Positions 8,531-54,055 of a stretch of 64,000 nucleotides of DNA are shown here, in pieces (position 1 is the stretch's first letter; every line of letters begins with the position of its first letter). Origin of the DNA: Benincasa hispida (Eukaryota; Streptophyta; Magnoliopsida; Cucurbitales; Cucurbitaceae); NCBI RefSeq assembly GCF_009727055.1, contig NC_052354.1:51385143-51449142 (forward strand), in the 5' to 3' direction. The translations under genes were made by a program, and so were the position numbers. The notes beneath the pieces were generated by a model that was not told where the DNA came from, searched no databases, and worked only from the letters and a program-made list of their open reading frames with translations.

Positions 8531-9260
8531 TTCTTAACCCTTCAAACCTAGTGGAATCATGAATAATTCAATTTCTTAGTTACTTACCTCTATGGTCCTA
8601 CTGTCCCAGCCCACTTCTGCAACCTCTGCATTTTTACGATGATCACTATACCTACTCTTGAGCGTAGAGACGATGACCCTTCGACGCCATAGTAAATTTG
8701 GGGGTGTTGTAAATTTGGAATGGATTTTCTCTATGTTTTGTTTATTTTGCTTATATCTACGAATTTTTTAATTCAACACATTATTTTTAATATATAATAT
8801 GAATTATGTGATTGTTTGCGTTCATTGTTCTGCTTTTATCTATTCTTGTCTTGTTATTTTTCATGTCTTATCCTTTTGCAATTCAACTTTATTATCTGTC
8901 TTTTTGTGCATTGATAAATTAGAAACCATTATAATACTTATATATTTCATTAGTTCACTCACTAAGAGTCACATACCTCTCTTAGCCTTGGTAGTTTCTT
9001 CCTCGTTTGATAGTCTTAATTTTAATGCACTCAAGCCTGTACTCAATCCTCTTTTCAAAATTTTCGAGTAATTTTTTTTTCTTTTTTTTTCTTAATAATG
9101 AGGAACTTTCTACTCTAAAAATTTTGGGGGTGGGAGAGGTTTGAACAAATGCATTTAACTTACACATTGCGATTACATACATAATTTTACTTAAAAAAAA
9201 TCTCGAATAATCAACTCCACTCTCAGCGCAAGGAAAAAACAGAACCTGATGTGAGTTTAA
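8531..9260. other. Left remnant of older gypsy element (Athila-B 3' region)
   Basis: No gene is supported. The last part (about 9240-9260, TGTGAGTTTAA) aligns with the 3' UTR of Athila-A near 20085, and the sequence resumes at 27125 after the Athila-A insertion with the expected continuation. The rest is A+T-rich, with T-runs at 9066-9093 and two AAATTTGGGGG-like tracts. I read it as 3' untranslated sequence of an old Athila-like element. Confidence 0.5.
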
Positions 9261-9265: not shown

Positions 9266-10861
9266 TGATAACTTGTAAAAATACAAGTTATTGTGGCTCA
9301 AAAGTTGGAACAATTAGGGTCTTTAATGATAAAATCTCATCATTTTTAGAAGAAACGCATAGAATTACTCGAACACTATCAAACTCATACAAAAAATTGT
9401 TTATTGCTAAAGTACTATCAAACAAGAGGCTAACGCATGATTAAGAAAAGTGTCGCAGGCAAAGTCTAACGCATGGGGCATGCGTCAAAGGGATTCAACG
9501 CAATGAAGATTCATTGATCCAGGCTGTTTGTGTTAAATCACCACTAGCAAGTTTGGGCACCTGCAGTGGGCGGCATCTGAAAAGCATCTGAGTGTTAGCG
9601 GCTGACCAGGGTATGGAATTTAATGCTGCCCGTCATCAAGTTGGAGAAGACCGACGCCTATAAATAGAAGAAATCCCGCCGAGTTCGAAGTTCCAATTTC
9701 TCAACTCTCAGTTTTTAGTCTCAGTTTTAGCTTAGTCTTAGTTTTAGATCTTTAGAGTTGGGCTGTGGTGCCGAGAAGAACAAGAGGGAAGAGAACCACC
9801 ACCATCGCCGATCAAAAAGCGGAGGAAGTCGAGCTCGAGAGAGACACTTCTTCACAATTCTTCCACAAGTGGTTGTACACAACTAGAATTGAGCCAAAGA
9901 GGATAAGAATTGTACTCTGTGGCTTGACTCATTTAATTTCATCTTACTTATCACTTCCATCTTTTCATCTGATTAAGTATTGATTTTGTAAAGACAATCA
10001 GTTTCTTTATAAATTCACATATTTGATCTATCATACTTGGCCATTGTTTATTTCTTGTTTATGTTGGATGCATCTATACTTCATGTAAAATTCCATTTCG
10101 AATGCTTAAACCAACTAAATCAATTGGTAAAAGCATCTTTAGCTTAAACTATTCGAGAGAATAAGTAAGCCAACATCAAGTTAGATCGCCTAGTACATCT
10201 AGAGATAGACTCACTGGTGTTTTATTGCATCCTGTGTTTGACGCATACATCCTAGAGATAGGTATTGTATGATATTCGCATTGAGAAGTGTCGAATAGCG
10301 TTTACCGCATAAATGAAGATAAACAAGTCATCTCATTCGCATCATATTCTTGTTCGTGTACATCCAACCTAGATCGACGCATATCACTTGTCTCAAACTC
10401 CATTTTCACACGACCCATCATTCTCTACTCGACCCTTTTGTATCTTCTTGCACACACACACAGCACCTTAGTGTAAATAACTCATTTCTCCATACACTTA
10501 GGATATCCCTACAACAATTACAACGCAAGGTTTGCGTTAGGTTTAATCTGAATCCCTGAGTTCGACCCTGGACTTACGAGGAACCTAAGTTGGATTTATA
10601 CTTGGATCTGATTTAGGAAAGCTTTAATATCAATAGAGAAGTGTCATGCGTCCTGTTGCACATCTCTAACGCATCAACGCGTTACTAATGCATCAATGCA
10701 TCAACACATCATTCATACTTATACTTCTTTTTCCAATTATTTTATACAATACACTCCTAAGCTCGAATCACAAAATCAACGAACAAGTTTTTGGCGCTAC
10801 TTATTTTTCCAATTATTTGATACAATACACTCCTAAGCTTGAATCACAAAATCAACGAACA
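9266..10861 (+). repeat. Athila-A 5' LTR
   Basis: 1596 bases, TGATAAC...CGAACA. It opens with an inverted repeat (AACTTGTA, 4-base loop, TACAAGTT) and has a TATA box at 9659. An array of short ACGCATCA-like words lies at about 10665-10720. Removing the 76-base duplication at its end gives about 1520 bases, close to the 1516-base copy at 24275-25790. The Arg-rich reading around 9765-9850 (MVPRRTRGKRTT) starts at GTG and lies in the transcribed part of the LTR; I do not call it a gene. Confidence 0.9.
9659..9666 (+). promoter_or_regulatory. TATA box of Athila-A LTR
   Basis: TATAAATA in the context GACGCCTATAAATAGAAG. It is conserved in the other Athila-A LTR copies (near 20854 and 24665) and is about 400 bases into the LTR, fitting the U3/R boundary. 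Confidence 0.75.
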
Positions 10862-10874
10862 AGTTTTTGGCGCC
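10723..10874 (+). repeat. 76 bp tandem duplication across the LTR/primer-site boundary
   Basis: 10723-10798 and 10799-10874 are near-identical copies, each running from ACTTNTTTTTCC to AAGTTTTTGGCGC. The first copy thus embeds a broken primer site (TGGCGCT) just before the real one. Other LTR copies here have one unit. Confidence 0.9.
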
Positions 10875-10888
10875 ATTGCCGAGGATTC
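10868..10888 (+). other. Athila-A primer-binding site (tRNA-Asp type)
   Basis: TGGCGCCATTGCCGAGGATT begins 6 bases after the LTR end. Athila-like elements use TGGCGCCGTTGCCGGGGA, complementary to tRNA-Asp; two substitutions are present here. Confidence 0.85.
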
Positions 10889-10983
10889 AACAATAAAAGT
10901 AACTAGAAATTTTGCTTGTATCTTTTGTAGGAACACTTCAGCTGAGGGAGTATTACAAGCTAATCCGAAGCTTGTAAACGTTT

Positions 10984-12376
10984 GTGAGTAGGGAGAGTAC
11001 TCCTGAACTTGTATACGACCCCGAAGTTGAAAGGACCTTCCGACGAAGAAATCGATCTAATCGTCGTTGTAGGTTAAGGCAACAACTGCTCAGACAACAA
11101 ACCAGGCAACAACAAATGGCGGACGAACAAGCAAATCAAAACTTAGCTCAACAGCTAGCCCACGCTGTGCAAAATCTTATCATAATGGCAAATAGTAGTA
11201 CGCGTCCCATGAGAGAGCATGCGTCTCCTATATTGTATGATTTCTCACCAGGGATCATATATCCAACGCCAGATTGGACAAGATTTGAGATGAAATTTGT
11301 GATGTTACAAATGCTCCAAACAGCTGGACAATTTGTGGGTGCTCGGGGAGAAGACCCTTACGCCCACATGAAACGTTTCCTAGAGACGTGCAACTCATTT
11401 GTGATTCCTCGAATCACCCCAGAAGCTATCAGGCTATCTTTATTCCCATATTCTCTGCATGACGACGCAAAGCAATGGGTAAGTTCTTTGGAGCCTGATG
11501 AGATCACAACCTGGGAAAAGTTGGTGGAGAAATTCATGCAGAAATACTTCCCACTGACCACCAATGCAAGGAGGCAGAGAGAGGTCATGAACTTTGAGCA
11601 GGAAGAATTCGAAACCTTGAGTGCCGAATGGGAGCGTTTCAAAGGATTAGTCAAGAATTGCCCAATCACGGATCACCATTAACCATTTAGATGGAGACTT
11701 TCTATGGCGGATTAAATAGAGCATCCGAAATGGCGACCGACGCAGCTACAGCTTGTGGTATCATGGACAAATCTTATACTGAAGCTAAGGAAATATTGGA
11801 CCGCATTGCCAAGCATAATACGGAATGGGTGGATGAAACTTACGAGGCAAGAGCAGAAAGAAAGATGCGATCTCAGAATGTGAATTCTATTGACTCTAAC
11901 GCAATATCCACGCTCTCTGCACAAGTGGCTACTATGACAAACCTTTTGCATAATATGTCACTAGGGAACACATCAAACCAGCAAAAGGTAAATCAGGTAG
12001 AAACATTTGTACAACCCATGGTTAGTTGTGTGGGCTGTGGAGATCCCCATTCCTACTCTGATTGCCCACAAAATCCACAATCGGTATGCTTTATTAAAAA
12101 TAACCCATTCTCAAACACATATAATCTCGGATGGAGGAACCATCCAAATTTCTCTTGGGTAGGTAATCAATAAGAGCCACGTCAGCTAGGGGTGAACCAG
12201 AAGCAAAGGCATGGACCGCCGCCTGCATTCCAGCCAATGCAGCAACCGCACGAACAAACCTTTAATAGAGAAGGTCATACGTCGAGTTCAACATCTCCGC
12301 TTGAAAACCTCTTAAAGGAGTATATTGCCCAGAACAACGCATTGCTAAAAATCCAGGCATCGTCCATAAAAAAAAC
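10984..12376 (+). pseudogene. Athila-A gag remnant with zinc knuckle
   Basis: The likely start is the ATG at 11116 (MADEQANQNLAQQL). Upstream, from 10984, an Arg-rich reading (RRRNRSNRRCRLRQQ) is open but has no ATG. The capsid region shows FEMKFVMLQMLQTAGQFVG, RLSLFPYSLHDDAKQW, TTWEKLVEKFMQKYFP and AEWERFKGLVKNCP. A frameshift after about 11680 moves the reading to METFYGGLNRASE and a CX2CX3HX4C zinc knuckle (CVGCGDPHSYSDC, about 12034-12072). TAA at 12171 stops this frame, which continues in frame to 12392. A second shift occurs in an eight-A run near 12370. Capsid and nucleocapsid functions are inferred from family membership. Confidence 0.88.
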
Positions 12377-13333
12377 TTGGAGATACAGGTAGGGCAGATT
12401 GCGAGTGAGTTGAAGAATCGGCAACCTAGAGTTTTGCCTAGCAACACAGAAACCCCAGGGAATAACAATGGAAAAGAGCAATGTCATGCGGTGACATTGC
12501 GAAGTGGCAAAGATCTTGAAGAAAGAATCATAAACCCAAGAGCCAACAATCCTTCAAAAGAACTCAACACACGCCCAACGGCATTAGAAGATCAAGAAGA
12601 AAGGACGCCTAAATCCACAAGCCATTCGGAGCCAAACACGTCTAATGCGGGAAAACCTGCGGTGCAGCTAAACGCACCATTCCCTAGACGCTTGACGAAG
12701 AAGAATGATGAACTGTAATTTAAGCGTTTTCTTGAACTCCTGAGGCAACTACACATCAATATTCCACTTGTAAAAGCCTTGGAACAAATGCCTAAATACA
12801 TCAAATTTTTTAAAGATATTTTGACAAAGAAAAGGAAAATCAGCGAGACGAAAGTAATTATGCTAACACAGGAGTGCAATGCATTAATCAACAATAGACT
12901 ACCCAAGAAACAGAAGTACCCGGGAAGCTTCACAGTCCCGTGCTCAATCGGAGGGTTCGACGTGGGACATGCGTTGTGTGATCTGGGAGCAAGCATTAAC
13001 CTCATGCCACTCTCAATCTTCAAGAAATTGGGAATTGGTGAAGCACAACCCACTTCTGTAACTCTTCAACTCACTCATAGGACGATCAAGTACCCTGAAG
13101 GAAAGATTGAAGATGTTCTGGCAAACGTTGACAACTTCATATTCCCAGTGGATTTCATCATCCTAGACTATGAAGCAGACAGGGATGTACCAATTATTCT
13201 TGGACGACCCTTTCTAGCCACTGGGAAAGTATTAATAGACGTGCATAAAGGAGAATTGACCATGTGCATAGACAATCAGGAAGTGAAGTTTAATGTGTTA
13301 AATGCATTAAAGTTCCCAGATAGTGAAGAATGA
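12377..13333 (+). pseudogene. Athila-A gag-protease linker and aspartic protease
   Basis: CHAVTLRSGKDLEE (about 12482-12525) is a typical motif of the gypsy gag-protease linker. After the stop TAA at 12716 the same frame gives FPxxxxK-like linker sequence, then the retropepsin: FTVPCSIGGFDVGHAL, active site CDLGASINLMP (about 12979-13011), and DVPIILGRPFLATG (about 13189-13230), the ILGRP flap/dimer motif. The protease would cleave the gag-pol polyprotein. The catalytic Asp is present. TGA at 13331 separates this piece from RT in the same frame. Confidence 0.88.
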
Positions 13334-14935
13334 CAACTGAACAGAATAGAGTTGCCTGAAGAGGAAGCGACCCAAGTTTGCGAGGTCCTCGCATTGGAAG
13401 AAAACATGAAAGAACCGGAGCCGCCAAGTCTGAGTGAGCGGCGGACGAAACCAACGCGTCCATCATTAGAGGAACCACCAGAACTAGAGTTGAAACCGTT
13501 ACCTAATCACCTTAAATATGCTTTCCTTGGAACAAACAAAACCTTACCTATAATTATTTCTGCAAATCTTACCGAGCTTAACAAACATTCTCTTTTACAG
13601 ATGTTGCAAAAGCACATGTGTGCAATAGGTTGGACATTGGTTGACATCCGTGGCATCAGCCCATCTTACTGCATGCATAAAATCAGGCTAGAAGAAGGGA
13701 AGACTGGATCGATTGAGCCTCAACGAAGGCTGAATCCCATAAAGAAGGAAGTGATCAAGAAAGAAATCTTAAAGTGGTTGGACGCAGGAGTAATCTACCC
13801 TATATCCGATAGCAGCTGGGTAAGCCCAATTCAATACGTCCCCAAGAAAATGGGAACAACAGTGATAGTTAATAGTAAGAATGAGCTCATCCCTACAATG
13901 ACTGTCATGGGTTGGTGCATGGACTATACGAAACTCAACGCAACAAACAAGAAGGACTACTTACCTCTTCCCTTCATTGACCAAATGCTTGACAGACTGG
14001 CTGGCAAAGAATTTTATTATTTTCTTGATGGATATTCTGGCTATAACCAGACTTTAATTGACCCAGAAGATCAGGAAAAGACGACATTCACTTGCCCCTT
14101 TGGAACGTTTGCGTTCAGATGCATGCCCTTTAGACTATGCAACGCACCTGGAACATTCCAAAGGTGCATGATGGCAATTTTCTTTGACTTCTTGGAAAAG
14201 ACCGTTGAAGTTTTCATGGACGATTTTTCAGTCTTTGGAGACTCATTTCAATCATGCTTAGATAACTTGGAGTCCATCCTCGCTTGATGCGAGGAAACAA
14301 ATCTTGTATTGAATTGGGAAAATTGTCATTTTATGGTAACTGAAGGCATTGTTTTGGGCCACAAGGTATCTAAAGCTGGGTTGGAAGTTGATGAGGCTAA
14401 GATAGATGTCATAGGTAAACTTCCTCCACCATCAAATGTAAAAGCTATACGAAGTTTTCTAGGACACGCTGGCTTCTACCGAAGGTTTGTTAAAGGATTT
14501 TCTCAAATTGTGCGACCTCTAAGCGCATTATTAGAAGCGAATCGACCCTACGAATTCAATGACGACTGCTGCGACGCATTTAAAAAACTAAAGTATGCGT
14601 TGACTACAGCTTCGGTACTAATAGCATCGGATTGGACACAACATTTCATTCTAATGTGCGACGAAAGTGATGTTGCAGTAGGTACCATGTTGGGGCATAA
14701 GAAAGGGAATTTGATACACCTCATCTCTTATGCGTCCAAGACACTGAACGACTCTCAGGAACACTACACAACCACGGAGAAAGAAATGTTGGCTGTAGTG
14801 TTTGGCATCAAAAAGTTCAAATCTTATTTAGTTGGTGCATCAACAACCATCTATACAGATCACTCAGCCATTAAGTTCCTGATGAGTAAAAAGGACGCGA
14901 AACGAAGATTAATTAAATGGGTGCTACTATTGTAG
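13334..14935 (+). pseudogene. Athila-A reverse transcriptase and RNase H
   Basis: The frame continues from the protease. RT motifs in order: KKEVIKKEILKWLDAGVIYPI, WVSPIQYVPKK, MDYTKLNATNKKDYLPLPFID, YYFLDGYSGYNQ (first catalytic Asp), FGTFAFRCMPFRLCNAP, and FMDDFSVFGDS (the F-x-DD catalytic box, about 14215-14247). TGA at 14285 interrupts, then VLNWENCHFMV, GIVLGHKVSKAGLEVD and SFLGHAGFYRRFV follow in frame. RNase H is marked by FILMCDESDVAVGTMLG, EKEMLAVVFGIKKF and YTDHSAIKFLMSKKDAKRRLIKW (as separate motifs). TAG at 14933 ends the piece. Catalytic residues are mostly retained; the defects are the in-frame stops. Confidence 0.92.
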
Positions 14936-16330
14936 GAATTTGACATCGATATTCAGGACAGAAAGGGAACTGAGAATCAGGTGACCGACCACCTGTCTAG
15001 ATTAGAGAATCAGGAAATACAAGACCAAGAAAATGAAATCAAAGATGCATTTCCTTATGAAAGTTTATTCAAAGTTGAAGGCAGGGAACCTTGGTACGCA
15101 GACATAGTTAATTACTTAACTACCAAGCAATTCCCCGAACACTTCAACTCTCAGCAAAAGAAAAGGTTGGTACATGACAGCAAATTTTTTTGGGATGAAC
15201 CGTTTCTGTACAAACAAGGTCCCGACTCCATCATGCGTCGATGTGTTCCGGAGGAAGAGACACAATGCATCCTAGCTGAGTGTCATGACTCTCCTTACGG
15301 AGTGCATTTTGGAGGGTAAAGAACCGCTTCGAACGTTCTTCAAAGTGGATACTTCTGGCCTACCCTCTTCAAAGACGCAAGGGAGTATGTTCGCAAGTGT
15401 GACCCTTGCCAACGAAACGGAAATATCTCATCAAGGGATGCAATGCCTCTGAACAATATTCTTGAAGTTGAATTATTTGACGTCTAGGGCATTGATTTTA
15501 TGGGACCTTTTCCCCTGTACCAAAGTGGATGGAAGCAGTAGCTTGTGCCAGAAATAATGCATGGACTATTTCTAAGTTTCTTACCAGGAAGATTTTCACA
15601 CATTTTGGAACACCAAGAGCCCTGATAAGTGATGAAGGTAGGCATTTTATTAATCACATCATTTCAAAATTTCTTGCCAAATATAATGTCAGGCATAAGA
15701 TCGCTACCGCATACCACCCGCAAACCAACGGTCAAGCTGAGGTATCGAATCAAGAAATAAAATCAATACTGGAAAAAGTTGTCAAGAATCTAGGAAATAC
15801 TGGGCACAGAGGCTGGATGAAGAAGTCTAGGCCTACAGGACTGCCTACAAGACTCCCGTAGGTATGTCTCTATACTTTTTAGTATTCGGAAAAGCTTGTC
15901 ACTTCCCCTAGAGTTAGAGCACAAAGCTTTCTGGGCAGTAAAGAAGCTGAATTTAAACTTGGATGTCGCGGGCGATCAATGCAAACTTCAGCTCAATGAG
16001 CTTGAGGAATGGCAGTTGAACGCATACTAGAACAACAAGCTCTACAAGGAGAAGACCAAACGTTGGCATGACCAACGTATTAGTAAGAAAGAGTTTGTTG
16101 CTGGCCAAAAAGTTTTATTATCCAATTCACGATTGCGCTTGTTCCCAGGAAAATTAAAGTCAAGGTGGTTAGGACCATTCATTATGAAAACAATCTTTCC
16201 CCATGGAGCAGTAGAGTTGACGCGGGAGGATGGCACAAATATGTTCGAGGTAAATAGGCAATGAGTGTAGCCTTACTTTGAAGATGGTGTAGAACGAAAA
16301 AAGTCATCCCTCGCATTACGCGAAGCCAAT
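14936..16330 (+). pseudogene. Athila-A integrase
   Basis: EFDIDIQDRKGTENQVTDHLSR opens the piece (as a gypsy RNase H-integrase connector), followed by the HHCC zinc domain: HDSPYGVHFGG and, after TAA at 15317, a CDPCQRNG motif near 15401. GIDFMGPFP (first catalytic Asp) follows TAG at 15485. A deletion near 15520 removes the segment up to KWMEAVACARNNA and changes frame. ALISDEGRHFINHII (second Asp) and TNGQAEVSNQEIKSILEK (catalytic Glu) are present. The C-terminal part, [32 protein letters not shown] and [18 protein letters not shown], runs to about 16330 with further stops. Integrase would insert the cDNA into chromosomes; this copy cannot encode it. Confidence 0.88.
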
Positions 16331-20275: not shown

Positions 20276-20466
20276 TGATAAACAAAAGGAGTTATTGTGG
20301 CTCAAAAGTTGGAACAATTAGGGTCTTTAATGATAAAATCTCATCATTTTTAGAAGAAACGCATGGAATTACTTGAACACTATCAAACTCATGCAAAAAA
20401 ATGTTTATTGCTAAAGTACTGCGGCACTAACGCATGATATTACAGGATCTCAACAAGAGGCTAACA

Positions 20467-20762
20467 CATGATTAAGAAAAGTGTCGCAGGAAAAGTCTAA
20501 CGCATGGGGCATGCTTCGGAGGGATTCAACGCAAGGAAGATTCATTGATTCAGGCTGTTTGTGTCAAATCACCACTTGCAAGCATGGGCACCTGCAGCTG
20601 TCTCTTATACACATCTAGATGTGTATAAGAGCATGATTAAGAAAAGTGTCGCAGGAAAAGTCTAACGCATGGGGCATGCCTCGGAGGGATGCAATGCAAC
20701 CAAGATTCATTGATTCAGCCTGTTTGAGTCAAAAGACCACTTGCAAGCATGGACACCTGCAG
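20467..20762 (+). repeat. ~131 bp direct repeat on both sides of the adapter
   Basis: 20467-20597 and 20632-20762 both run from CATGATTAAGAAAAGTG to CACCTGCAG. The offset is 165 bases. Neither the 5' LTR nor the copy at 24275 has this duplication. Small differences (for example CTTCGGAGGG versus CCTCGGAGGG) indicate that the two copies come from different genomic repeats or read errors. Probably an assembly artefact tied to the adapter. Confidence 0.85.
20598..20631. other. Sequencing-library adapter (Tn5 mosaic ends, mate-pair junction)
   Basis: CTGTCTCTTATACACATCT followed directly by AGATGTGTATAAGAG. The first 19 bases are the complete reverse-complemented Tn5 mosaic end used in tagmentation libraries; the next 15 are the mosaic end in the other direction, lacking only the last four bases. 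Two mosaic ends head to head are the junction adapter of circularised mate-pair libraries. This is not plant sequence and marks an unclean gap fill or misjoin. Confidence 0.97.
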
Positions 20763-21068
20763 CGGCGGCGTCTGAAAAGCATCTGAGTGTCAGGCGGCTA
20801 ACCAGGATATGGAATTTAATGCTGCCCATCATCAAGTTGGAGAAGACCGACGCCTATAAATAGAAGAAATCCCACCGAGTTCAAAGTTCGAAGTTCTCAA
20901 CTCTCAGTTTTAGCTTAGTCATAATTTTAGATCTTTAGAGCTGTGTTGTGATGCCGAGAAGAACAAGAGGGAAGAGAACCACCATCATCACTGATCAAGG
21001 AGCGGAGGAAGCCGAGCTCGAGAGAGACACTTCTTCTAATTCTTCCACAAGTGGTTGTACACGACTAG

Positions 21069-21320
21069 TGATAACTTGTAGGAATACAAATTATTTATGC
21101 TACTTTATCTAGATATTGCGACCAAAAGAGAATAAATATGCGCCAATTGTATGAAAATTAGCTTAGAAATACAATAATTATGAATTGTCGTAATTACGCC
21201 CACTAACATCATTAAGATGGAAGAAAATGAGATTTCTACTCTGTTTTGTAGGAAACCAAGTCACCGATTGCGATCAAGGTTCAAGACGAACTGACCAACG
21301 CATCTCTGTCACATTGCGCC
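21069..21320 (+). repeat. Left arm of the long inverted repeat in insertion X
   Basis: Pairs with 22915-23152 plus 26209-26226. Shared segments include GTAGGAAACCAAGTCA, TGCGATCAAGGTTCAAGA and TCACATTGCGCCC (reverse-complemented in the right arm). Identity is high but not perfect, so the arms are either aged or derived from different copies. Confidence 0.85.
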
Positions 21321-21609
21321 CGACAATCAACAATGAAAAGATGATTAATGCAATGACGGCGCAATGCGACAGTCGATACAGAGCTAACTTTCAACCACAT
21401 GCGGTAATAAAAACAACACCGCATGTGATCTCCTGATCGAAAGATACAGCTGAGCAACGTAAAAGCGAAGGATTATGACACATGTACGACTAACGGTTGT
21501 GCAAATTTGATGGTGTGATTGCATAATAGAAGGAATAAATATCCCTCCATCTTCGGAATTTCCATAACAAAAAGTGGGGTCCACAAGGCTGGAGTCAAAG
21601 ATCTTCACC

Positions 21610-21617
21610 TATAAATA
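21610..21617 (+). promoter_or_regulatory. TATA box of LTR-X
   Basis: TATAAATA in CACCTATAAATACCCC, about 540 bases into LTR-X, consistent with an LTR promoter. Confidence 0.6.
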
Positions 21618-22914
21618 CCCCATAGAATTCAGAGAAACCATGCTAAATGATACGGGGCAAAATTGATATTAGGTTATTAAGAGAAAGGCTGAGCTGATTG
21701 CTAAATGGAAGAAATCTGGGAAGAAGAAGAGACAAGGCCGAAAGGTGAGTCTCAGAACGATTCTGCCAGATCCCCGCCATAGAGTTCTATACTCAGATCC
21801 CTGCTATTGGTTGAGCAAGCCTGAGAGAGAAGCTCATCCTTCCGTAGAATCCATCCGTACTGGCAAGCAAACCTTCACCCAAATCGGTGCCGAAACATTA
21901 GCACTTGTTTGTATTTGTTCTATCTCTTTTCATCATTGTATTTCATCTTTTTTATCTCTTTATTCACACACCATGTATCAGACGCTGAATAGATATATGG
22001 AATGTCTCGATCGTTTTCATTACCACTTCTCTGTCTATTTTCGTTCCTCCATTTATCGTTTTCTCCATAAAGTCTTCTTAATCCCTTGGTAGTTAATATG
22101 AATTAAACGAGTACTTAATCTATGTTAAAGAGATAAATGCATTTATCTAAGGCATGCTAGACGACATCTTCACCTGTGAAAGCAGAAGTGAAGATGCCAT
22201 TCTGATCTATCGAGAGAAGGTTAGAAGAATGCATTAACTAAAGCGAGTAAAACTTCTAGAGATGGAAGCAACCTTTCGTTCATTACATTCATCTCTGTTT
22301 CACCACAGACATGTGGGAACACGGCCGATCACCGAGAGATGTACGCCAAGGGAAAGCGGGACCGTACTTATGTCATTAATGCAATTAAGTAACTTGTGTT
22401 GTTTATATTAGTTATCATTTCTTTTTTGCTTCACATAAGACTTGTCAACACATCACACTATCTTTGTATAATCTTCATAGCCAACCTTAACCTCAGTAAC
22501 CCGTATCATGAGACCTGTATCTTGTACCATCTTAGCTTAGGTTTATTGTAATTTTTTTAATTATTGCATTTTTACTGCTTTCCTTTACTTTAATGCATTT
22601 TGAATACTTGTACAAACCATCCTTTTATATAGTTGAAAATCTGGTCGTATGTATCATAACCATAACGCAATAACCTCAAACAGTCCGTGTGTTCGACCTC
22701 GGATCACACCAAGAAACTTGCGGTGGAATTATACTTGGTTCCAACGTAAAGAAACTTGTGACAACACACGACATACTACAAGAACATTCATTAATAACAC
22801 ATATCTAGAAGTAGTATTGCATGAATTGAGTCATGGCAGGTCATTATTGCATATCATTGGACTTGAACCATGCGTGCATATCATCACATACAACTTGCGA
22901 TCAACAAGTTTATG

Positions 22915-23152
22915 GGGCGCAATGTGATAGAAATGTATTGATCAGTTCATCTTGAACCTTGATCGCAAGCGTTGACTTGGTTTCCTACAAAACAGAGTAG
23001 AAATCTATTTTTCTTCCATCTTAATAATGTTAGTGGGTGTAATTGTGATAATTCATAATTATTGTATTTCTAAGCTAATTTTCATACACTTGGCACATAT
23101 TTATTCTCTTTTGGTCGTAATATCTAGATAAAATAGCATAAATAACTTGTAT
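22915..23152 (-). repeat. Right arm of the long inverted repeat in insertion X
   Basis: Reverse complement of 21085-21320. Its inner edge overlaps the primer-site stub at GGGGCGC. Its outer end breaks off at AACTTGTAT, where Athila-A LTR sequence TTGTATCTTCTTGC begins; the missing last ~18 bases appear at 26209-26226. Confidence 0.85.
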
Positions 23153-23500
23153 CTTCTTGCACACACATAACACCTTAGTGTAAATAACTCATTTCTCTAT
23201 ACACTTAGGATATCCCTACTACAGTTACAACGCAAGGTCTGTGTTAGCTTTAATTTGAATCCCTGAGTTCGACCCTAGACTTACCAGGAACCTAAGTTGG
23301 ATTTATACTTGGATCTAATTTAGGAAAACTTGAACGTCAATAGAGGAGTGTCGTGCGTCCTGTTGCACATCTCTAACGCATCAACGTGTTACTAACGCAT
23401 TAACGCATCAATGCATCAACGCATCATTCATACTTATACTTATTTTTCCAATTATTTTATACAATACACTCCTAAGCTTGAATCACGAAATCAACGAACA
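23153..23500 (+). repeat. Athila-A-type LTR fragment (3' end)
   Basis: Matches about 10440-10861 of the Athila-A 5' LTR: TCTTCTTGCACACAC, the U5 segment and the ACGCATCA word array (about 23375-23425), ending CAACGAACA at 23500. Confidence 0.85.
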
Positions 23501-23506
23501 AGTTTT

Positions 23507-23527
23507 TGGCGCCGTTGCCGGAGATTC
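23507..23527 (+). other. Primer-binding site of truncated Athila-A copy
   Basis: TGGCGCCGTTGCCGGAGATT, the best match to the tRNA-Asp-type primer site in this window; it follows the LTR end at 23500 by six bases. Confidence 0.85.
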
Positions 23528-23587
23528 AGCAATAAAACTAACCAGAAATTTTGCTTGTATCTTTTGAAGGAAAACATCAGCTAAGGG

Positions 23588-24257
23588 AGTATTATGAGCT
23601 AAGCTGAAGCAAGTAAACGTTGAGCAGGAAGAGCACTCCTGAACTTGTATACGACCCCGAAGTTGAAAGGATTCCGACAAAGAAATTGATCTAATCGTCA
23701 CCATAGGTTAAGGCAACAACTACTCAAACAACAAATCAGGCAACAACAGATAGCAGACGAACAAGTGAATCAAAACTTAGCTCAACAGCTAGCCCACGCT
23801 ACGCAAAATCCTATCATGATGGCAAACAGTAGTACGCGTCCCATGAGGGAGTATGCGTCTCCTGGGTTGTATGATTTCTCCCCAGGGATCATATATCCAA
23901 TGCAAGATTGGACAAAATTTGAGATGAAATATGTGATGTTACAAATGCTCCAAACAGCTGGACAATTTTAGGGTGCTCGGTGAGAAGACCCTCACACCCA
24001 TTTGTGATTCCTAGAATCACCCTAGAAGCTATAAGGCTATCTTTATTCCCATATTCTCTGCGTGACGATGCAAAACAATGGGTAAGTTCTTTGGAGCCTG
24101 GTGAGATCACAACTTGGGAAAAGTTGGTGGAGAAATTCATGCAGAAATACTTCTCACAAACCACCAACGCAAGGAGGCAGAGAGAGATCATGAACTTCGA
24201 GCAGGAAGAAGCTAAAACCTTGAGCGCCGCATTGAAGCGTTTCAAAGGATTAGTGTT
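23588..24257 (+). pseudogene. Truncated Athila-A gag copy 2
   Basis: Collinear with 10984-11652. QNLAQQLAHATQNP, FEMKYVMLQMLQTAGQF, then TAG where the main copy has TGG-like sequence, and a ~28-base deletion at about 23998. Then FVIPRITLEAIRLSLFPYSL and TWEKLVEKFMQKYFSQTTN follow. It stops at KRFKGLV, followed by an unrelated 17 bases ending GAGGGTG that look like a polypurine tract before the next LTR. Confidence 0.85.
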
Positions 24258-24274
24258 AGAATTCTTCGAGGGTG

Positions 24275-25790
24275 TGATAACTTGTAGAAATACAAGTTAT
24301 TATGGCTCAAAAGTTAGAACAATTAGGGTCTTTAATGATAAAATCTCATCATTTTTAGAGAAAATGCATGGAATTACTCGAACACTATCAAACTCATGTA
24401 AAAGAATGTTTATTGCTAAAACACTGCGGCACTAATGCATGATATTGCAGGATCTGACACAGGCAAAGTCTAACACATGGAACATACGTCGGAGGGATTC
24501 AACACAATGAAGATTCATTGATTCAAGTTATTTGTGTCAAATCACCACTTGCCAACATGGGCACCTGCTGCAGGCAGCGTCTGAAAAGCATCTGAGTGTC
24601 AGGCGACTGACCAGGGTATGAAATTTAATGCTACCCATCATCAGGTTGGAGAAGAACGACGCCTATAAATAGAAGAAATCCCACTATATGAAAGAGTTCG
24701 AAGTTCCAAGTACACAACTCTCAGTTTTTAGTCTCAGTTTTAGCTTAGTCTTAGTTTTAAATCTTTAGAGCTGTGTTGTGATGCCGAGAAGAACAAGAGG
24801 AAAGAGAACCACCACCATGTCGATCAAGGAACGGAGGAAGCCGAGCTCGAGAGAGACACTTCTTCCAATTCTTCCACAAGTGGTTATCCACGACTAGAAT
24901 TGAGCCAAACAGGACAAGAGATTGTACTCTACGGCTTCACTCTTTCCATTTCATCTTACTTATCGCTTTCATCTTTTCATTTGATTAAGTATTGGTTTTG
25001 TAAAGACAATCAGTTTCTTTATAAATTCACATATTTGATCTATCATACTTTGCCATTGTTTATTTCTTGTTTATGTTGGATGCATCTATACTTCAATGCA
25101 AAATTCCATTTCGAACGCTTAAGCGAACTAAATCCATTGGTAAAAGCATCTTTAGCTTAAACTATTCGAGAGAATAAGTAAGCCAGCATCAAGTTAGAAA
25201 GCCTAACACATCTATAGATAGACGCACTGGTGTTTATTGCATCCTGTGTTTGATGCATACATCCTAGAGATAGGTATTGTATGATATTCGCATTGAGAAG
25301 TGTCGAATAGTGTCTTAACGCATAAATAGAGATAAACAAGTCATCTCATTTGCATCATATTCTTGTTCGTGTACATCCAGCTTAGATTGAGGCATATCAC
25401 TTGCATCAAACTCCATTTTCACACGACCCATCATTCTCTACTCGAACCTTTTGTATCTTCTTGCACTCACATACAACACCTTAGTATAAATAACTCATTT
25501 CTCCATACACTTAGGATATCCCTACAACAGTTACAACGTAAGGTCTGCGTTAGCTTTAATCTGAATCCCTGAGTTCGACCCTGGACTTACCAGAAACCTA
25601 AGTTGGATTTATACTTGGATCTGATTTAGGAAAACTTGAACGTCAATAGAGGAGTGTCATTCATCCTATTGCACATCACTAACACATCAACGTGTTATTA
25701 ACGCATCAACGCATCATTCATATTTATACATATTTTTCCAATTATTTTATACAATACACTTCTAAGTTCGAATAACAAAATCAACGAACA
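24275..25790 (+). repeat. Complete Athila-A-type LTR (1516 bp)
   Basis: TGATAACTTGTAGAAATAC at 24275 to CAACGAACA at 25790, with TATA box CCTATAAATAGAAG near 24664. It is preceded by a GAGGGTG tract and followed by a primer site, so it is shared by a deleted upstream copy and a truncated downstream copy, as in tandem LTR-internal-LTR arrays made by unequal recombination. Confidence 0.88.
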
Positions 25791-25796
25791 AGTTTT

Positions 25797-25817
25797 TGGC
25801 GCCATTGTCGGGGATTC
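25797..25817 (+). other. Primer-binding site after the 24275-25790 LTR
   Basis: TGGCGCCATTGTCGGGGATT, tRNA-Asp type with two substitutions. Confidence 0.8.
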
Positions 25818-25914
25818 AAGAACAAAAGTAACTAGAAATTTTGCTTGTATCTTTTGTAGGAACACTTCAGTTGAGGGAGTATTACGAGCTAGGCCGAAGC
25901 TTGTAAACATTTAT

Positions 25915-26195
25915 GAGTAGGGAGAGCACTCCTGAACTTGTATACGACCCCGAAGTTGAAAGAACCTTCTGACGAAGAAATCGATCTAATCGTCGTCGTA
26001 GGTTAAGGCAACAACTGCTCAGGCAACAAACCAGGTAATAACCAATGGCGGACGAACAAGCAAATCAAAACTTAGCTCAACAGCTAGCCCATGACCCTAT
26101 CATAATGGCAAACAGTAGTACGCGTCCCATGAGGGAGTCTGCGTCTCCTGGGTTGTATGATTTCTCACCCGGGATCATATATCCAACGCCAGATG
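25915..26195 (+). pseudogene. Truncated Athila-A gag copy 3
   Basis: Collinear with 10984-11270: MADEQANQNLAQQLAH at 26045, a 15-base deletion, then MANSSTRPMRESASPGLYDFSPGIIYP (as in the main copy). It ends at GCCAGAT near 26195, where the text passes through GGGACAAGAGATTGTA (LTR-like) into the end of insertion X. Confidence 0.85.
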
Positions 26196-26231
26196 GGACA
26201 AGAGATTGTATTCCTACAAGTTATCAACTAG

Positions 26232-27119
26232 AATTGAGCCAAAGAGGACAAGAAATTGTACTCTGCAGCTTCACTCCTTCCATTTCATCTTACTTATCGC
26301 TTCCATCTTTTCATGTTATTAAGTATTGGTTTTGTAAAAACAATTAGTTTCTTTATAAATTCACATATTTGATCTATCATACTTTGCCATTGTTTATTTC
26401 TTGTTTATGTTGGATGCATCTATACTTCATGAAAAATTCCATTTCGAATGCTTAAGCCAACTAAATCCATTGGTAAAAGCATCTTTAGCTTAAACTATTC
26501 GAGAGAATAAGTAAGCCAGCATCAAGTTAGAAAGCCTAACACATCTACAGTTAGACGCACTAGTGTTTGCATCCTGTGTTTGACACATACATCCTAGAAA
26601 TAGGTATTGTATGATATTCGCATTGAGAAGTGTCGAATAGAGTCTCACGCATAAATAGAGATAAACAAGTCATCTCATTCGCATCATATTCTTGTTTGTG
26701 TACATCCAGCTTAGATCGACACATATCACTTGCATCAAACTCCATTTTCATATGACCTATCATTCTCTACTCGACCCTTTTGTATCTTCTTGCACACACA
26801 CACAACACCTCAGTGTAAATAACTCATTTCTCCATACACTTAGGATATCCCTACAACAGTTACAACGCAAGGTTTGCGTTAACTTTAATCTGAATCCCTA
26901 AGTTCGACCCTAGACTTACCAGGAACCTAAGTTAGATTTATACTTGGATTAGATTTAGGAAAACTTGAACGTCAATAGAGGAGTGTCATGCGTCCTATTG
27001 CACATCACTAATGCATCAATGCGTTACTAACGTATCAATGCATCATTCATATTTATACTTATTTTTTCAATTATTTTATACAATACACTCCTAAGTTCGA
27101 ATCACGAAATCAACGAACA
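26232..27119 (+). repeat. Athila-A 3' LTR, right half
   Basis: Starts AATTGAGCCAAAGAGGAC, exactly where the LTR stopped at 21068, after the second ACTAG (26227-26231). It ends CAACGAACA at 27119 and is not followed by a primer site but by the GTTGT target duplication, as expected for a 3' LTR. Confidence 0.88.
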
Positions 27120-36331: not shown

Positions 36332-37400
36332 TCACTGCTTCTGATAATGCATGAACTCTGCTTCAGTAGTAGAAAGAGCTACTACTGATTGTAAGGTAGC
36401 CTTCCAGCTTAGAATACATCTTCCAAATAGGAAGATATACCTCAATAATGACCTCCTTTTGTCGAGATCTCCTACATAATCTGCATCTACACAACCAACC
36501 AGCTCTGGTTCACTGTCTGATAGTTGTTGGTACTTTAGTTTAGCATTAGTAGTACCCTTTAGGTACCTCATAATTCACTTTGTAGTCTCCCAGTGTCTCT
36601 TACCTGGATTAGCCATGTATCTACTCACCAGGCTAGTAGCATAGGCTATGTCAGGTCTTGTGGACATTATTAAATACATCAAACTTCCCACAGCTTGGGA
36701 ATAAAGAACTGTTAACATAATTTGCCGATGCTCAATGTTTGAATCTTTAGGTGAATTCTCTGCTGAAAGTTTGAAATGGTTGGTTATTGGAGTAGTCATT
36801 GCTTTAGCTTCTGTCATTTGATACCTTTTCAACAATTTACTGCAGTATTTTGACTGATCAATGCTTAGAATACTTGTTTTTCTGTTTCTAATAATGTCAA
36901 TACCAAGTATTTTTGTTGCATTTCCCATGTCTTTCATTTCGAACTCTGATTTCAGTAGATCTTTTACTTTGTTCAGCTCTTTCATTATTGCTCTTGCTAG
37001 AAGCATATCATCCACATATAAAAGCAAGTAGATAGGATGAGTATAGAACTTTGTATTTATATAAACACAGCTGTCATAGGAGCTTCTGTAGAAACCATTC
37101 TTCTAAACAAAGTCACTAAACCGTCTGTTCCAGCATCTTGGGGATTGTTTGAGGCCATAAATAGATTTTTTCAACAGGCACACACAATCTTCCTTCCCTT
37201 TGACCTCATATCCCTTCGGTTGGCTCATGTATATAACTTCCTCTAGGAAGCCATGTAGAAAAGTTGTTTTGACATCTAGTTGCTCCAGCTCTAGGTTGTT
37301 TTGAGCCACAATCGATAATAGTAATCTGATAGAAGTCTGTTTAACCACTGGAGAAAAAATTTCATTAAAATCAACACTTATTGTATAAAGCCCTTAGCAA
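36332..37400 (-). pseudogene. Copia-B reverse transcriptase and RNase H
   Basis: Reading the minus strand from 37348: SIRLLLSIVAQNNLELEQLD, VKTTFLHGFLEEVIYMSQP and LLKKSIYGLKQSPRCW (RT fingers and palm), a frame change, then LLYVDDMLLA (catalytic YVDD, about 37001-37024) and TKILGIDIIRNRKTS, SQAVGSLMYLIMSTRPDIAYA. RNase H follows at 36571-36332: GCVDADYVGDLDKRRS (catalytic Asp region), CILSWKATLQSVVALSTTEAEF. Stops near 36573, 37030 and 37101 break the frame; the C-terminal end of RNase H is readable only in fragments below 36332. Confidence 0.9.
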
Positions 37401-37686: not shown

Positions 37687-38538
37687 CTACCTATCTCTAG
37701 CTAGGCAGTAACTTCTCAATTCTGATTCTTCTTGCTCAGTATCAATAATAATAACATCTTCTACTTCTTCTTCTTGATGAGGTAGTTGATCAAAGTGTGA
37801 TTCAGAGCTTGAAGGATTAGAAGTAGGAACTAGAACTTGCTCCACCTCAATTGTATTGCTTTTCTCTTGAGGTACTAAAACATTTGGATTAGTTTTCTGC
37901 ATATACATTTTTTCTTCCTTGAAAATCACATCTCTACTAGTTATCATCTTTTCTCAATAGGGTGCCACATTCTAAACCCCTTAACACCTTCTGTGAAGCC
38001 CAAAAACATACACTTCACAGCTCTGGCAGCAAACTTTCCTTTACTCTGATGAACATAGCCAGTGCAGCCAAATACCCTCAGGTTATTCAGGTTAGGTGAC
38101 TTCAGGGGTTAGCAAGTTAAGAGATGCATGAGGGCATCTATTCAGTATATAGACTGTATATGAAGCTGCCTCTGCCCAAAACTTCTCATGTAGTAAAGCA
38201 TCAGATAGTAAGCTTCTGACCCTCTCCATTACTGTTCTGTTTAACCTTTCTGATACCCCATTTTGCTGGGGTGTATACCTAATTGTCTTGTGTCATAATA
38301 TGCCTTGTTGTCTACAATCAACATTGAACTCTTCTGCACAATATTCAAGCCCATTATCTGTTCTAAAACACTTAATTTGACAGTTAGACATTTTCTCAAC
38401 CATCACTTTCCATTCTTTAAACTTTTTAAACACTAAATCCTTTGATTTAAGGAAATAGATCCATCTCTTTCTTGAGTAATCATCAACAAATGTAAGGAAA
38501 TACCTGGCACCACTCAAAGATAAGGTGAAGGACCCCAT
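37687..38538 (-). pseudogene. Copia-B integrase core and C-terminal linker
   Basis: FLTFVDDYSRKRWIYFL (first catalytic Asp, about 38465-38500) and IKCFRTDNGLEY (second Asp) are intact at 38538-38293. Beyond a stop at about 38290 the rest is readable only in pieces: a PAKWG-like form of the TPQQNG motif, then the acidic linker at 37947-37687 (ITSRDVIFKEEKMY, then DVIIIDTEQEESE). The integrase C-terminal CFLGY-type motif lies near 38000 in another frame. Confidence 0.85.
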
Positions 38539-39350
38539 AGGTCTGAATGCACATAGTCGAGGATGGCCTTGGTTGTGTGTTGTGCCTTCACAAAGCTCTG
38601 CCTAGTAGCCTTCCTTATTACACAATGTTCACAAAAGGATAGGCTCTGATGTACTCCCTTAGGTAGAATACCTTGGTTGGCTAGAGCTTGTAGACCTTTG
38701 GCACTTATGTGAGAGAGTCTTTTGTGCCATAGGTCTCCTTCAGTAGGCTGATTATGAGTCACAATCAAGGCTGAGTGTACTTGATGAACACCTTGCACTA
38801 CATACACTCCATTTATCTTCACCCCTCTAAGGACAGGCTTACTGTTCTTCAACACTTCATAGTATCCTTCCTTGCCTCTGTATTCACAGCCAATAGAGTC
38901 AAGCATGCCCAGTGAAATTAGATTTCTCTTCAGCTTAGGTACATGTCTGACATTTTTTAAGAGTTTGACTGTTCCATCTTCTAACTTCAATGAGACTGAA
39001 CCAATCCCAACCATTGGACATGAGTTATTGTTTCTCATGTAGACTGAACCTCCATCCAATTCTCTGTAGGTACTGAACCAGCCCTTGTGAGGTGTCATGT
39101 GGAATGAATACCCTGAATCTAGAACCCAATCTAGGTTCTTATTTGCTTCTTCTTCTGCCCTGCAATTAGATGTAGCCAAAGCATCAGAATAAAAGTAAGA
39201 ATATTTACAAACTGAGGCTTCACCTGACTGGTTTGGTTGGACTTTGGGTTGTGGCTGAGATTGTTTATTTTTCTGCTTATTTTTCCACTTGAGTGTTCTG
39301 CAATCTTTGATCAAATGTCTAAGCTTTTTACAATATTTGCATCTGACCGT
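38514..39350 (-). pseudogene. Copia-B nucleocapsid, protease and integrase N-terminus
   Basis: Zinc knuckle CKYCKKLRHLIKDC (CX2CX4HX4C, about 39298-39345) is followed by a Lys/Gln-rich linker and the protease with WVLDSGYSFHMTP (active-site DSG, about 39100-39135) and VGIGSVSLKLEDG. Then LKNVRHVPKLKRNLISLG and the GAG-pre-integrase domain LWHKRLSHISAKGLQALA with CEHCVIRKATRQSF, and YVHSDLWGPS leading into integrase. This 266-codon frame is open from the zinc knuckle to 38514 and is the best preserved part of Copia-B. Confidence 0.9.
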
Positions 39351-39439
39351 GGACTTTTCTTTTCCCCCTTCTTCATTTGAGCTTTGTTTTCCTTTCTCCT
39401 TGTTATTCTATTTTGACTTTCCTTTAACAAACAAGCCTT

Positions 39440-43754: not shown

Positions 43755-43769
43755 TCAATGGAAGATTAA

Positions 43770-44869
43770 ATCGTGATTGTCTTTATCAGTTGCATAATCT
43801 GCATCCACAAAACCTGTGAGAACCTCTTGATTACTTAAGTGTTTAGTATATAATAGCTCATATGATACGGTTCCTTTAATATATCTTAGAATCCACTTAA
43901 CTGCTTGCCAATGATAACTCCCTGGATCAGTTATATATCTACTAATAACACTTAAATAATGAGCTAAATCTGGTCTGGTACAAACCATAAGATACATGAG
44001 ACTTCCTACAGCGTTAGCATATGGTACAGCTTGCATTTGATCTCTTTCATCATCAGATTTGGGGGCATGCTTAAGGGAAAACTTAAAATGAGATGCAAGA
44101 GGTATTGTAACTGATTTAGATTCATTCATTCTAAATCTTGTAGGCATCTTATGGCAATATGCTTCTTGAGAAAGTCTCATAGTACCAACATTTCTATCTC
44201 TATCAATTTTTATCCCTAGTATTTTCTTTGCAAGTTTGAGATCTTTCATGTCAAAGACCCTTTTTAAATCATTTTTCAGCTTATTCACCTCTTGTCTATT
44301 TATGCTTGCTACTAGCATATCATCAACATATAACAATAAGAAAACAGAATGTCTTCCTACTCATGTCTAAAGTACACATAATGATCCAGCATACTTCTTT
44401 TAAAACCACATGATAACATAAATGAATCAAACTTAAGATACCATTGCCTAGGTGCTTACTTTAGACCATACAAGGATTTCTTAAGAAGACACGCTTTATT
44501 TTTAGTTCCTGCTTTTAAATCTAGGTGGTTGATGCATATAGATAGTTTCAGATAAGTCTCCATGTAAGAATGTTGTTTTGACATCCAGCTGGTCTAGCTC
44601 CATATTATACTCAGTAACCAGTGATAATAGCATTCTGATGGAGGTGTGTCTCACTACAAGTGAAAAATTTTCATTGTAGTCTACCCCTTCTTTCTGATTG
44701 AACCCTTTAGCAACAAACATTGCTTTATACCTTGGTGAATCTTTATTTTGAAAGTCATGTTTGAGCTGTATATCCACTTACATCCAAGCATCTTCTACTT
44801 AAGTGGTTTGTCCACCAATTCCCAAGTTTTATTCTTGATCAAAGAATCCATTTCTTCTTGCATTATTCG
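43770..44869 (-). pseudogene. Copia-D reverse transcriptase and partial RNase H
   Basis: From 44777: KAMFVAKGFNQKEGVDYNENFS, SIRMLLSLVTEYNMELDQLD and KTTFLHGDLSETIYMHQP (RT), a damaged stretch 44337-44501, then MLYVDDMLVAS (catalytic YVDD, at about 44310-44336) and KKILGIKIDRDRN, AVGSLMYLMVCTRPDLAH and HWQAVKWILRYIKG. RNase H starts with GFVDADYATDKD at about 43778-43815 and is cut off there. The catalytic box is intact but the frame is not. Confidence 0.9.
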
Positions 44870-45841
44870 CTACCATTTGAGTTTTTCTTTACAATTTACT
44901 GCTTCTTCGATGGTCAGTGGTTCATTATCAGCTTCTTTCAACTCAGTACAGAATGCATAATGAACTATATCAGCATCTGCATACCTGGAAGGTAGCCTAA
45001 TCTGCTTTCTTAGTCTGTCTCTAGCCAGAGTGTATGACTGAAGATCATCTCCTTGAGAAGTTTTTGCTTGAACCATCTCCACCTGAGAGTTATCTTCTGC
45101 ATTTTCCTGATTTTCAGATTCATTTGAAGCGTGGCTCGGTACTTCAAACTCAATAAGTTTCAGATGTTGCCTCTGGCTCTTGCGCAGTCTTATTCTCTTT
45201 ATTGGTCAATGTCATCCTAGTCTCATCAAAAGTTACATCCCTACTAATGATGCATTTCTCTTGTCCTTCTTCAACACACCATAGTTTATAGCCTTTGCAC
45301 CTTTGGGGTATCCTAGAAAAAGACATTTCTTAGCACGATTGTCTAACTTTCCTTCTTTGGAATGTGCATATGTAACACACCCAAAACTCCTCAAGTTAGA
45401 TGAGTTTGGTGGATGTCCTGTCCATTTTTCCATGGGAGTTTTAAACTCTATAGCTGAAGAAAGACTTCTGCTAACAAGGTAAATAGTTGTTTCCAATACT
45501 TCCCCCCAAAAGTTCCTTGGTAGATTAGCATTTGACAAGAGACATCTTACCTTATCTAACAATGTACGATTCATCCTTTCAGCCAGGCCATTTTGCTGAG
45601 GTGTTCCTTTCACTGTACGGTGTCTCTGAATTCCATCTCTCTCACACAGGAGCTTCAATTCATTATTCATAAATTCCAAGCCATTTTTAGTCCTCAATGA
45701 CTTTAACTTCTTGTCTGTTTGATTTTCAACCAAATTCTTCCATTCAACAAATTTCCTGTAGGTTTCAGCTTTGCTTTTCAATAAATAGGTCCAAACCCTT
45801 CTTCAATAGTTATCAACAATGGAGAGGAAAAACCGTGACCT
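44870..45841 (-). pseudogene. Copia-D integrase and linker
   Basis: 45781-45233: KFVEWKNLVENQTDKKLKSL, RTKNGLEF (second catalytic Asp of RTDNG replaced by Lys), GTPQQNGLAERMNRTLLDKV (catalytic Glu present), and the C-terminal KKCLFLGYPKGAK. 45082-44870 holds the linker SYTLARDRLRKQIRLPSRY and the first RT residues. Stops lie at about 45232 and 45790. Confidence 0.88.
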
Positions 45842-46439
45842 TCACATGGTAGAAGTTTTTTCTGAACTCCATAAATTAGCATGTACATATTCTAAGATAG
45901 ATTTAGACGTGTGTAGCCCTTTACTGAATGAAACTCTAGTTGACTTGCCATAGATGCAGTGCTCACATATACCTAGGCTAATTTTTAAAGTTGTTTCCAG
46001 CAAGCCTTGCTTGAAAAGATGTTTTAAACCATTCTCACCGATATGTCCCAACCTTTGATGCCATATTCTTTCTTCTATTGGATGTTTCTGTGAAACAACT
46101 AATGAGGCACCAACTACTTTATTTCTCTCCAAAATATATAGTCCATGTCGAAGCTTTCCTCTTAGTTTCACCAACACTCCTTTTATAACTTTTAAGGTAC
46201 AATTCTTAAATCTACAAAAGTATCCTGCAGTGTCAAAAGCTTTAAGAGAAAGAAGATTTCTCTTCAAATCAGGAACATACCTTACTAAAGTGAGCTCCTT
46301 GATCTGTCCATCAATTATCTTCACTAGAACTGTTCCAATTCCTTCAACACTGCATTCTTGATAATTTTCTAGAAGAACCTTCCCCTATTAATCTCCTTGA
46401 AGTGTTGAAACCAATCCTGGTTTAGACTCATATGAAAAG
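45842..46439 (-). pseudogene. Copia-D protease end and integrase N-terminal domain
   Basis: ELTLVRYVPDLKRNLLSLKA is the conserved segment after protease; RIWHQRLGHIGENGLKHLF and CEHCIYGKSTRVSFSKG form the HHCC integrase N-terminal domain; YVHANLW leads to the integrase core. Upstream of 46324 a protease piece is readable in damaged frames until LTR-E starts at 46440. Confidence 0.88.
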
Positions 46440-53359: not shown

Positions 53360-53962
53360 TTATAGTGTTTCTTCGGCTTTTGACATAATTGAGAGCCGGC
53401 TACGCTTCGGCCTAAAATCAGATCGACGGCGTTGCTGATGAGAAGAAGGCCGAATCAAAGCAGCTAAAGCTCGCTTCACGAGATCACCTTCAACGCCTCC
53501 GATTCTAACAAGAGAATTCGTCATCGCCGATCGACGAGCATTCAACCTACTCGGCGAGTACGGAACAGTAGGTTGCGAAATTATACCTTTATGGAGACTA
53601 CACCGGAACGAGCCAGGGTGAGTAGTAGGAGAACACATACACGTCCTCTTCGAACTGCTCTGCCTCTGCACGACTCGATGACTCCCTCCGCTGCGAGAAG
53701 AAACAGACACGGATCTGTTCGGAGACGTCGCACGGTCAAGAGAAAACCGCACGGACGGCACGGAAACTGAAGGCGAACCGTGAAGCTTCACACGCGACGG
53801 GGAAGTCGATCTACAGAAGAAGGAAGTTGCGGATCCGGAGGAGAAACTGGAGGACGAGGACGCGAAGGCCGACGAAGATGAACTCCGGTAACCGTAGAAC
53901 CTTCCGGACGGTGAGAGTGATCGGAGAACTGATGCGTTTGATCTTCGAGAAGTTGCCGCCAT
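53360..53962 (-). CDS. Serine-rich protein (serine-rich protein-related family)
   Basis: A 200-residue intact frame from ATG (53962, context GAAAATGGCGGC) to TAA. It is rich in Ser and Arg: RSLSPSGRFYGYRSSSSSAF, then SFFCRSTSPSRVKLHGSP. The conserved core CMCSPTTHPGSFRCSLHK (about residues 107-124) and the C-terminal SLVRIGGVEGDLVKRALAALI with RPSSHQQRRRSDF identify the plant family annotated as serine-rich protein-related (Arabidopsis has several members). Molecular function is not known to me; no catalytic domain, signal peptide or membrane segment is visible. Many SP pairs (LSPSG, STSPS, ATSPN) could be phosphorylation sites. It is the only intact, high-G+C coding sequence in the window, with its own promoter, and is flanked by repeats on both sides. 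Confidence 0.92.
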   Translation of the reverse strand: MAATSRRSNASVLRSLSPSGRFYGYRSSSSSAFASSSSSFSSGSATSFFCRSTSPSRVKLHGSPSVSVPSVRFSLDRATSPNRSVSVSSRSGGSHRVVQRQSSSKRTCMCSPTTHPGSFRCSLHKGIISQPTVPYSPSRLNARRSAMTNSLVRIGGVEGDLVKRALAALIRPSSHQQRRRSDFRPKRSRLSIMSKAEETL

Positions 53963-54055
53963 TTTCGTTAGAGAAGAGAGAGAAAGGGGGATGAATGTAG
54001 AGCTTTCTGGTCTGCTCTTCTAAGCCTAATAGGCCGCGTTTGGCTGTTGAGTTTG
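53963..54055 (-). promoter_or_regulatory. Pyrimidine-rich 5' UTR of the serine-rich gene
   Basis: Minus strand reads CCCCCTTTCTCTCTCTTCTC just before AACGAAAATGGCG. CT-rich leaders of this kind are common in highly expressed plant genes. The exact transcription start is not visible. Confidence 0.55.

Follow-up and report, generated by a model that had tools for sequence, protein, structure and literature searches.

The window analysed here is a stretch of 64,000 nucleotides of the Benincasa hispida genome (C6:51385143-51449142), and the genome searched alongside it comprises 912,946,352 bases (913 Mb) in 1,791 contigs. The feature of interest lies within an old retrotransposon on the plus strand. 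Its 5' LTR spans 9266-10797 with approximate boundaries and matches 24275-25802 at 88.7%. Downstream, pieces of the gag and pol frames are recognised by Pfam across 10978-15861 (plus strand), namely gag from 10978 (PF03732), protease from 12719 (PF13650, just below the cut-off), RT from 13334 (PF00078), RNase H from 14288 (PF17917) and integrase from 15496 (PF00665). The integrase follows RT and RNase H, which is the order of Ty3/gypsy elements, with a score slightly below the Pfam cut-off. The 3' LTR is altered in its first bases, from about 20277, and is interrupted further on. Its left arm occupies 20290-20597 (plus strand; 86.0% to 9286-9566 and 80.6% to 24295-24571), and the remainder of its right arm occupies 20763-21068 (plus strand), the segment 20632-21068 aligning to 9436-9886 at 87.2%. 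The LTR alignments and the Pfam matches hence support a location of the interruption within the 3' LTR of an old, Athila-like Ty3/gypsy element. The earlier note had spoken of an artefact inside an Athila LTR; the Ty3/gypsy LTR stands, and the name Athila, taken over from that first reading, fits the anatomy. The domain order, the LTRs of about 1.5 kb and the extra coding sequence before the 3' LTR are shared with Athila-type elements. The host differs from them in that its reading frames are broken and that its 3' LTR is followed, at 21084, by a sequence with a 238-base inverted repeat.

The two arms of this inverted repeat (21084-21321 and 22915-23152) are 91.6% alike, the first lying directly after the end of the LTR arm at 21068, and 21084-23152 resembles a nested insertion whose inverted ends are long. 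From 23147 to 27119, LTR and gag-region pieces of the same family as 9266-11651 are arranged in tandem, including a second gag fragment at 23923-24435. Other features of the window belong to different families. A copia-type pol piece lies on the minus strand at 38514-39407 (Pfam Pol_BBD and gag_pre-integrs), and the minus-strand open reading frames at 36578-37102 and 43758-46384 appear by eye to be further copia pieces. A single-exon gene that looks intact and encodes a plant serine-rich protein is present at 53363-53965 (minus strand). The closest named relatives of its product are from cucurbits (melon 91%, colocynth 86%, bitter gourd 86%), and one match named Benincasa hispida is 73% identical and presumably represents another gene.

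The interruption of the 3' LTR consists of 34 bases. Positions 20598-20616 (plus strand) read CTGTCTCTTATACACATCT, an exact match to the complete 19-base Tn5 mosaic end, and are directly adjoined at 20617-20631 (minus strand) by AGATGTGTATAAGAG, which matches 15 of the 19 bases of a second mosaic end, the two meeting at their outer ends. The complete junction of this kind is a perfect palindrome of 38 bases, i.e., its own reverse complement, and 34 of these 38 bases are present here in one unbroken run with no spacer between the mosaic ends. Only the first half is therefore complete; the inner ACAG of the second is missing and is replaced by CATG, the same letters as at the corresponding place in the LTR sequence to the left. 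The description given in the earlier note, of a mosaic end joined head to head to a second one and lacking four bases, thus proved exact. A chance origin of such a palindrome can be ruled out, as the expectation for a given 34-mer in 64 kb is about 4e-16 and the same junction is present genome-wide. Likewise, with up to three mismatches allowed, no place in the window other than the two halves of the junction itself matches the 19-mer (0.01 matches expected after shuffling of the 64 kb), and the inner 22-base core palindrome occurs once against an expectation of 0.00. Adapters of other platforms gave no 14-base match in the window except the mosaic end; 12-base matches to PacBio (35875) and loxP (14444) sequences were taken as chance. 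When the 38-mer is translated, one frame is open and the other two contain a stop, and a literature search for an adapter-encoded peptide found no paper. The segment 20598-20631 is a mate-pair junction adapter, made of two Tn5 mosaic ends minus the last four bases, and it is not biological.

The adapter is not confined to this locus. The earlier note had proposed a screen of the whole assembly, and this screen disclosed a mass occurrence, with the 19-base mosaic end found 10,766 times forward and 10,764 times in reverse and the perfect 38-mer 9,991 times, while the reversed control patterns of the mosaic end and of the 38-mer gave 0 matches each genome-wide. By subtraction, 775 and 773 further sites (1,548 in all), the window site among them, hold one complete half only. 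If there is no overlap among these half-only sites, the total comes to about 11,539 adapter sites, a density of approximately one per 79 kb or 0.81 per 64 kb. The 34-base prefix followed by a base other than A is found at 155 sites (90 forward, 65 reverse), including the window site, and a part of these represents substitution and not loss. For example, the junction near C6:51382735, 2.4 kb before the window start, reads CCAG for ACAG, a single substitution such as an uncorrected read might leave. Genome-wide searches gave 0 matches for the natural Tn5 outside end and 0 for the mosaic end preceded by the Nextera read-1 tail, which rules out a natural Tn5/IS50 end and an ordinary Nextera read adapter, respectively. 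The mass occurrence, together with the absence of the reversed control, the outside end and the read-1 tail, implies an assembly-wide carry-over of one library adapter.

The same 38-mer is found inside contigs of many deposited prokaryote genomes, at least those among the matches listed. These include CP051244.1, which is labelled a chromosome, and, again among the matches listed, Enterococcus sp. 10A9_DIV0425, Scytonema tolypothrichoides VB-61278 and Collinsella ihumii GD8. Plasmids contributed five records with 14 places, and no match was obtained in the E. coli genomes and phages searched. Altered or cut ends are not peculiar to the wax gourd window either. In an exact count of core palindromes among the prokaryote and viral matches listed, 18/172 had an altered or cut end, two of them only through the end of the stretch.

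The probable source of the adapter can be sought in the libraries. The assembly appears to be that of wax gourd line B227, for which the B227 paper reports five libraries of the mate-pair type (2 and 8 kb) prepared by the Illumina standard protocol and read on HiSeq 2000, followed by ALLPATHS-LG contigs, mate-pair scaffolding and PBJelly gap filling (PMC6856369). Provided that the identification with B227 is right, mate-pair libraries were, on the evidence of that text, used for the assembly. The words 'Nextera' and 'adapter' are absent from the main text of the wax gourd papers PMC6856369 and PMC9905507. The protocol in PMC6298255 for mate-pair libraries made by tagmentation includes biotinylated junction adapters, a circularisation step and trimming at a later stage. 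The Illumina Nextera Mate Pair junction adapter agrees with the wax gourd sequence in being a 38-base palindrome of outer-end-joined mosaic ends with a Tn5-like footprint in the flanks, and the window site differs from it in the four missing inner bases of one half.

The letters of the 38-mer are by themselves insufficient to prove tagmentation, because the same 38-mer, exact to the base, is printed in PMC7357533 as a biotin-labelled ring adapter that was ligated to sheared 4-kb fragments; such ligation could also explain the loss of bases at an inner end. The genomic flanks, however, tell against it. The first genomic base beside the perfect 38-mers is G at 8,907 of 19,982 ends (4,402 + 4,505; 44.6%; only G was counted), and the profile from 89 distinct ends of fetched loci shows +1 G, +2 T, +4 Y, +5 W, +6 R, +8 A, +9 C and +10 T, symmetric about +5 as expected of a 9-base Tn5 target. 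It equals the profile of unrelated assemblies, with a correlation of 0.91 to 284 junction ends from the prokaryote and viral contigs among the matches listed (0.31 and -0.10 at control offsets). The motif AGNTYWRANCT, quoted as the Tn5 preference in PMC3046479, is partly resembled, +3 T and +7 A not being enriched. The same paper states that mechanical fragmentation is only slightly biased and that the transposase signature is more extended (PMC3046479). The Tn5-like footprint thus favours tagmentation over ligation to mechanically sheared DNA, and the ring-adapter origin is very unlikely. A real insertion of mosaic ends into the plant genome, through a transgene, a Tn5-type element or chance, is supported solely by the fact that the assembly contains the sequence. 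It is contradicted by about 11,500 sites at which the ends enclose no transposon, by the want of natural outside ends genome-wide, by the adapter-free state of all 12 related LTRs compared (see below), by the negligible chance expectation and by the occurrence of an identical junction across many unrelated assemblies, which together make it vanishingly improbable. The tagmentation origin named in the earlier note is accordingly upheld by the exact match of the letters, the abundance of perfect 38-mers over the control, the footprint, the missing read-1 tails and the mate-pair libraries of B227. Judged from the sequence and its flanks, the 34 bases are almost certainly the circularisation junction of a Tn5-tagmentation mate-pair library, left in the reads before assembly or gap filling.

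A same-strand duplication of 131 bp of the LTR, absent from the earlier note, flanks the adapter. Copy A (20467-20597, plus strand) lies flush to its left and copy B (20632-20762, plus strand) flush to its right; they are 92.4% identical without gaps and differ at 10/131 bases, by seven transversions and three transitions. The stretch was compared in 12 LTRs, of which two lie in the window and ten were chosen from among 39 other listed matches of copy B in the genome. All 12 hold it once, unbroken and free of the adapter, and the LTR continues after 2 to 4 further bases; in the window copy at 24 kb, 109 of the 131 bases are alignable. Similarly, at 39/39 of the other genome places listed for copy B, where about 40 of 1,254 candidates were scored, the alignment runs unbroken through the adapter position. 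As 12/12 related LTRs are collinear with the left arm and with what remains of the right arm, the demonstrable damage is limited to about 165 bp. This false part probably comprises the adapter and one redundant copy, i.e., 20598-20762 or, equivalently, 20467-20631. No contradicting evidence was found for the left arm, for the rest of the right arm or for the LTR-type repeats up to 27 kb, and the warning of the earlier note that all structure between about 20.3 and 26.3 kb is suspect goes beyond what the evidence supports.

Junctions elsewhere in the assembly were sampled at 55 places, consisting of the 54 sites listed first for contig C1 and one more in the same stretches. The junction is complete in 47 and has a shortened half in eight, and N was present within 1.5 kb of three. 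In 18/55, same-strand copies of 54 to 296 bp lie at most 3 bp from the adapter on either side, the remaining 37 being without a flush duplication. Three of the 18 belong to an array at C1:2861251-2861789, where four junction adapters stand in a row, 167 bp apart, with identical 129-bp units between them. Among the 128 prokaryote and viral loci of the matches listed, 143 junctions were testable (11 more lay too near an end), and 22 of these were flanked on either side, no more than 10 bp from the adapter, by the copies of a duplication. The contaminated prokaryote assemblies therefore share with wax gourd the 38-mer inside contigs, the flanking duplications and the altered or cut ends. Their flush copies are, among the matches listed, nearly all identical, in contrast to the 92.4% of the window copies.

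The divergence of copies A and B gives some weight to another reading of the duplication, in which the adapter is still an artefact and copy B is a genuine other LTR, a mate-pair fragment of 2 or 8 kb having been misjoined so that the two sides at 20.6 kb are not adjacent in the plant. Several related LTRs do lie in the window, 4 to 15 kb apart. Moreover, the other flush duplications of the sample differ in total by 27 transitions, nine transversions and six gap columns, and the diverged ones look like real repeat copies (one has 12 transitions and five transversions); this excess of transitions suggests that diverged repeat copies may also be joined elsewhere in the assembly. The differences of copy B are of another kind. 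Among columns in which the 12 related LTRs agree to at least 80%, it departs from the family at 8/126, all of them transversions and seven private (in 0/12). By contrast, the right arm beyond the duplicate departs at 9/270 columns, with seven transitions, two transversions and one private difference. The left arm departs at 5/295, four being transitions, and the 12 family LTRs together show 298 transitions and 155 transversions. Fisher tests gave p = 0.0002 for the all-transversion departures and p = 0.0004 for the private differences, both being post hoc and based on few (8) sites. The best relative elsewhere also reaches 93% for copy B as against up to 97% for copy A (158-base query), about 40 of more than 1,200 candidates having been scored for each. 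By their pattern, the departures of copy B seem more like the errors of a poorly supported read than the outcome of LTR evolution. It is this likeness to read errors that renders a misjoined second LTR rather unlikely. Copy B is probably a redundant, error-bearing second reading, and that it is the same locus as copy A, read again with errors, is the likely explanation.

The duplication and the adapter could both arise from the way in which the library is made. The transposase would add a 19-base mosaic end to each end of a genomic fragment, and on closure of the fragment into a circle the two mosaic ends would meet. A read across the junction would then run from the fragment end through the adapter to the fragment start. 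An assembler accepting this read may, on reaching the end of a stretch, return to its start, write the adapter and copy the stretch again. With the 131 bp of the LTR as the stretch, the order in the assembly becomes the left part of the LTR, stretch A, adapter, stretch B and the right part of the LTR, as found. The loop might have begun with very small circles, or else with contig ends that were joined by way of the palindrome they share, and the faulty step would be local gap filling or contig joining. The missing ACAG may perhaps have been overwritten towards the genomic sequence (CATG as in copy A) during read correction. In the four-adapter array of C1, the loop was apparently passed several times by the assembler.

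The presence of the adapter is a matter of assembly quality and not of plant biology. What began as a single odd 34-mer becomes a genome-wide quality warning for this assembly, to which none of the titles found in a literature search on adapter contamination points; as titles only were considered, this is no proof that it has gone unreported. The Tn5-like footprint beside the adapter offers a simple forensic test by which tagmentation libraries could be told from those with ligated adapters. Work that relies on the wax gourd reference can meet both the inserts and the false duplications, for example in LTR-pair dating, in gene prediction across the adapter and in structural-variant calling. 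LTR pairs of wax gourd have been dated with LTR_Finder and K2P distances (PMC6856369). Tentatively, and with the balance of expectation against it, the adapter might act as an artificial 38-base repeat, at about 11,500 sites and with about one third of the sample falsely duplicated, that measurably distorts what has been published on the wax gourd reference, from LTR dating and counts of tandem duplicates to gene models and the calling of structural variants.
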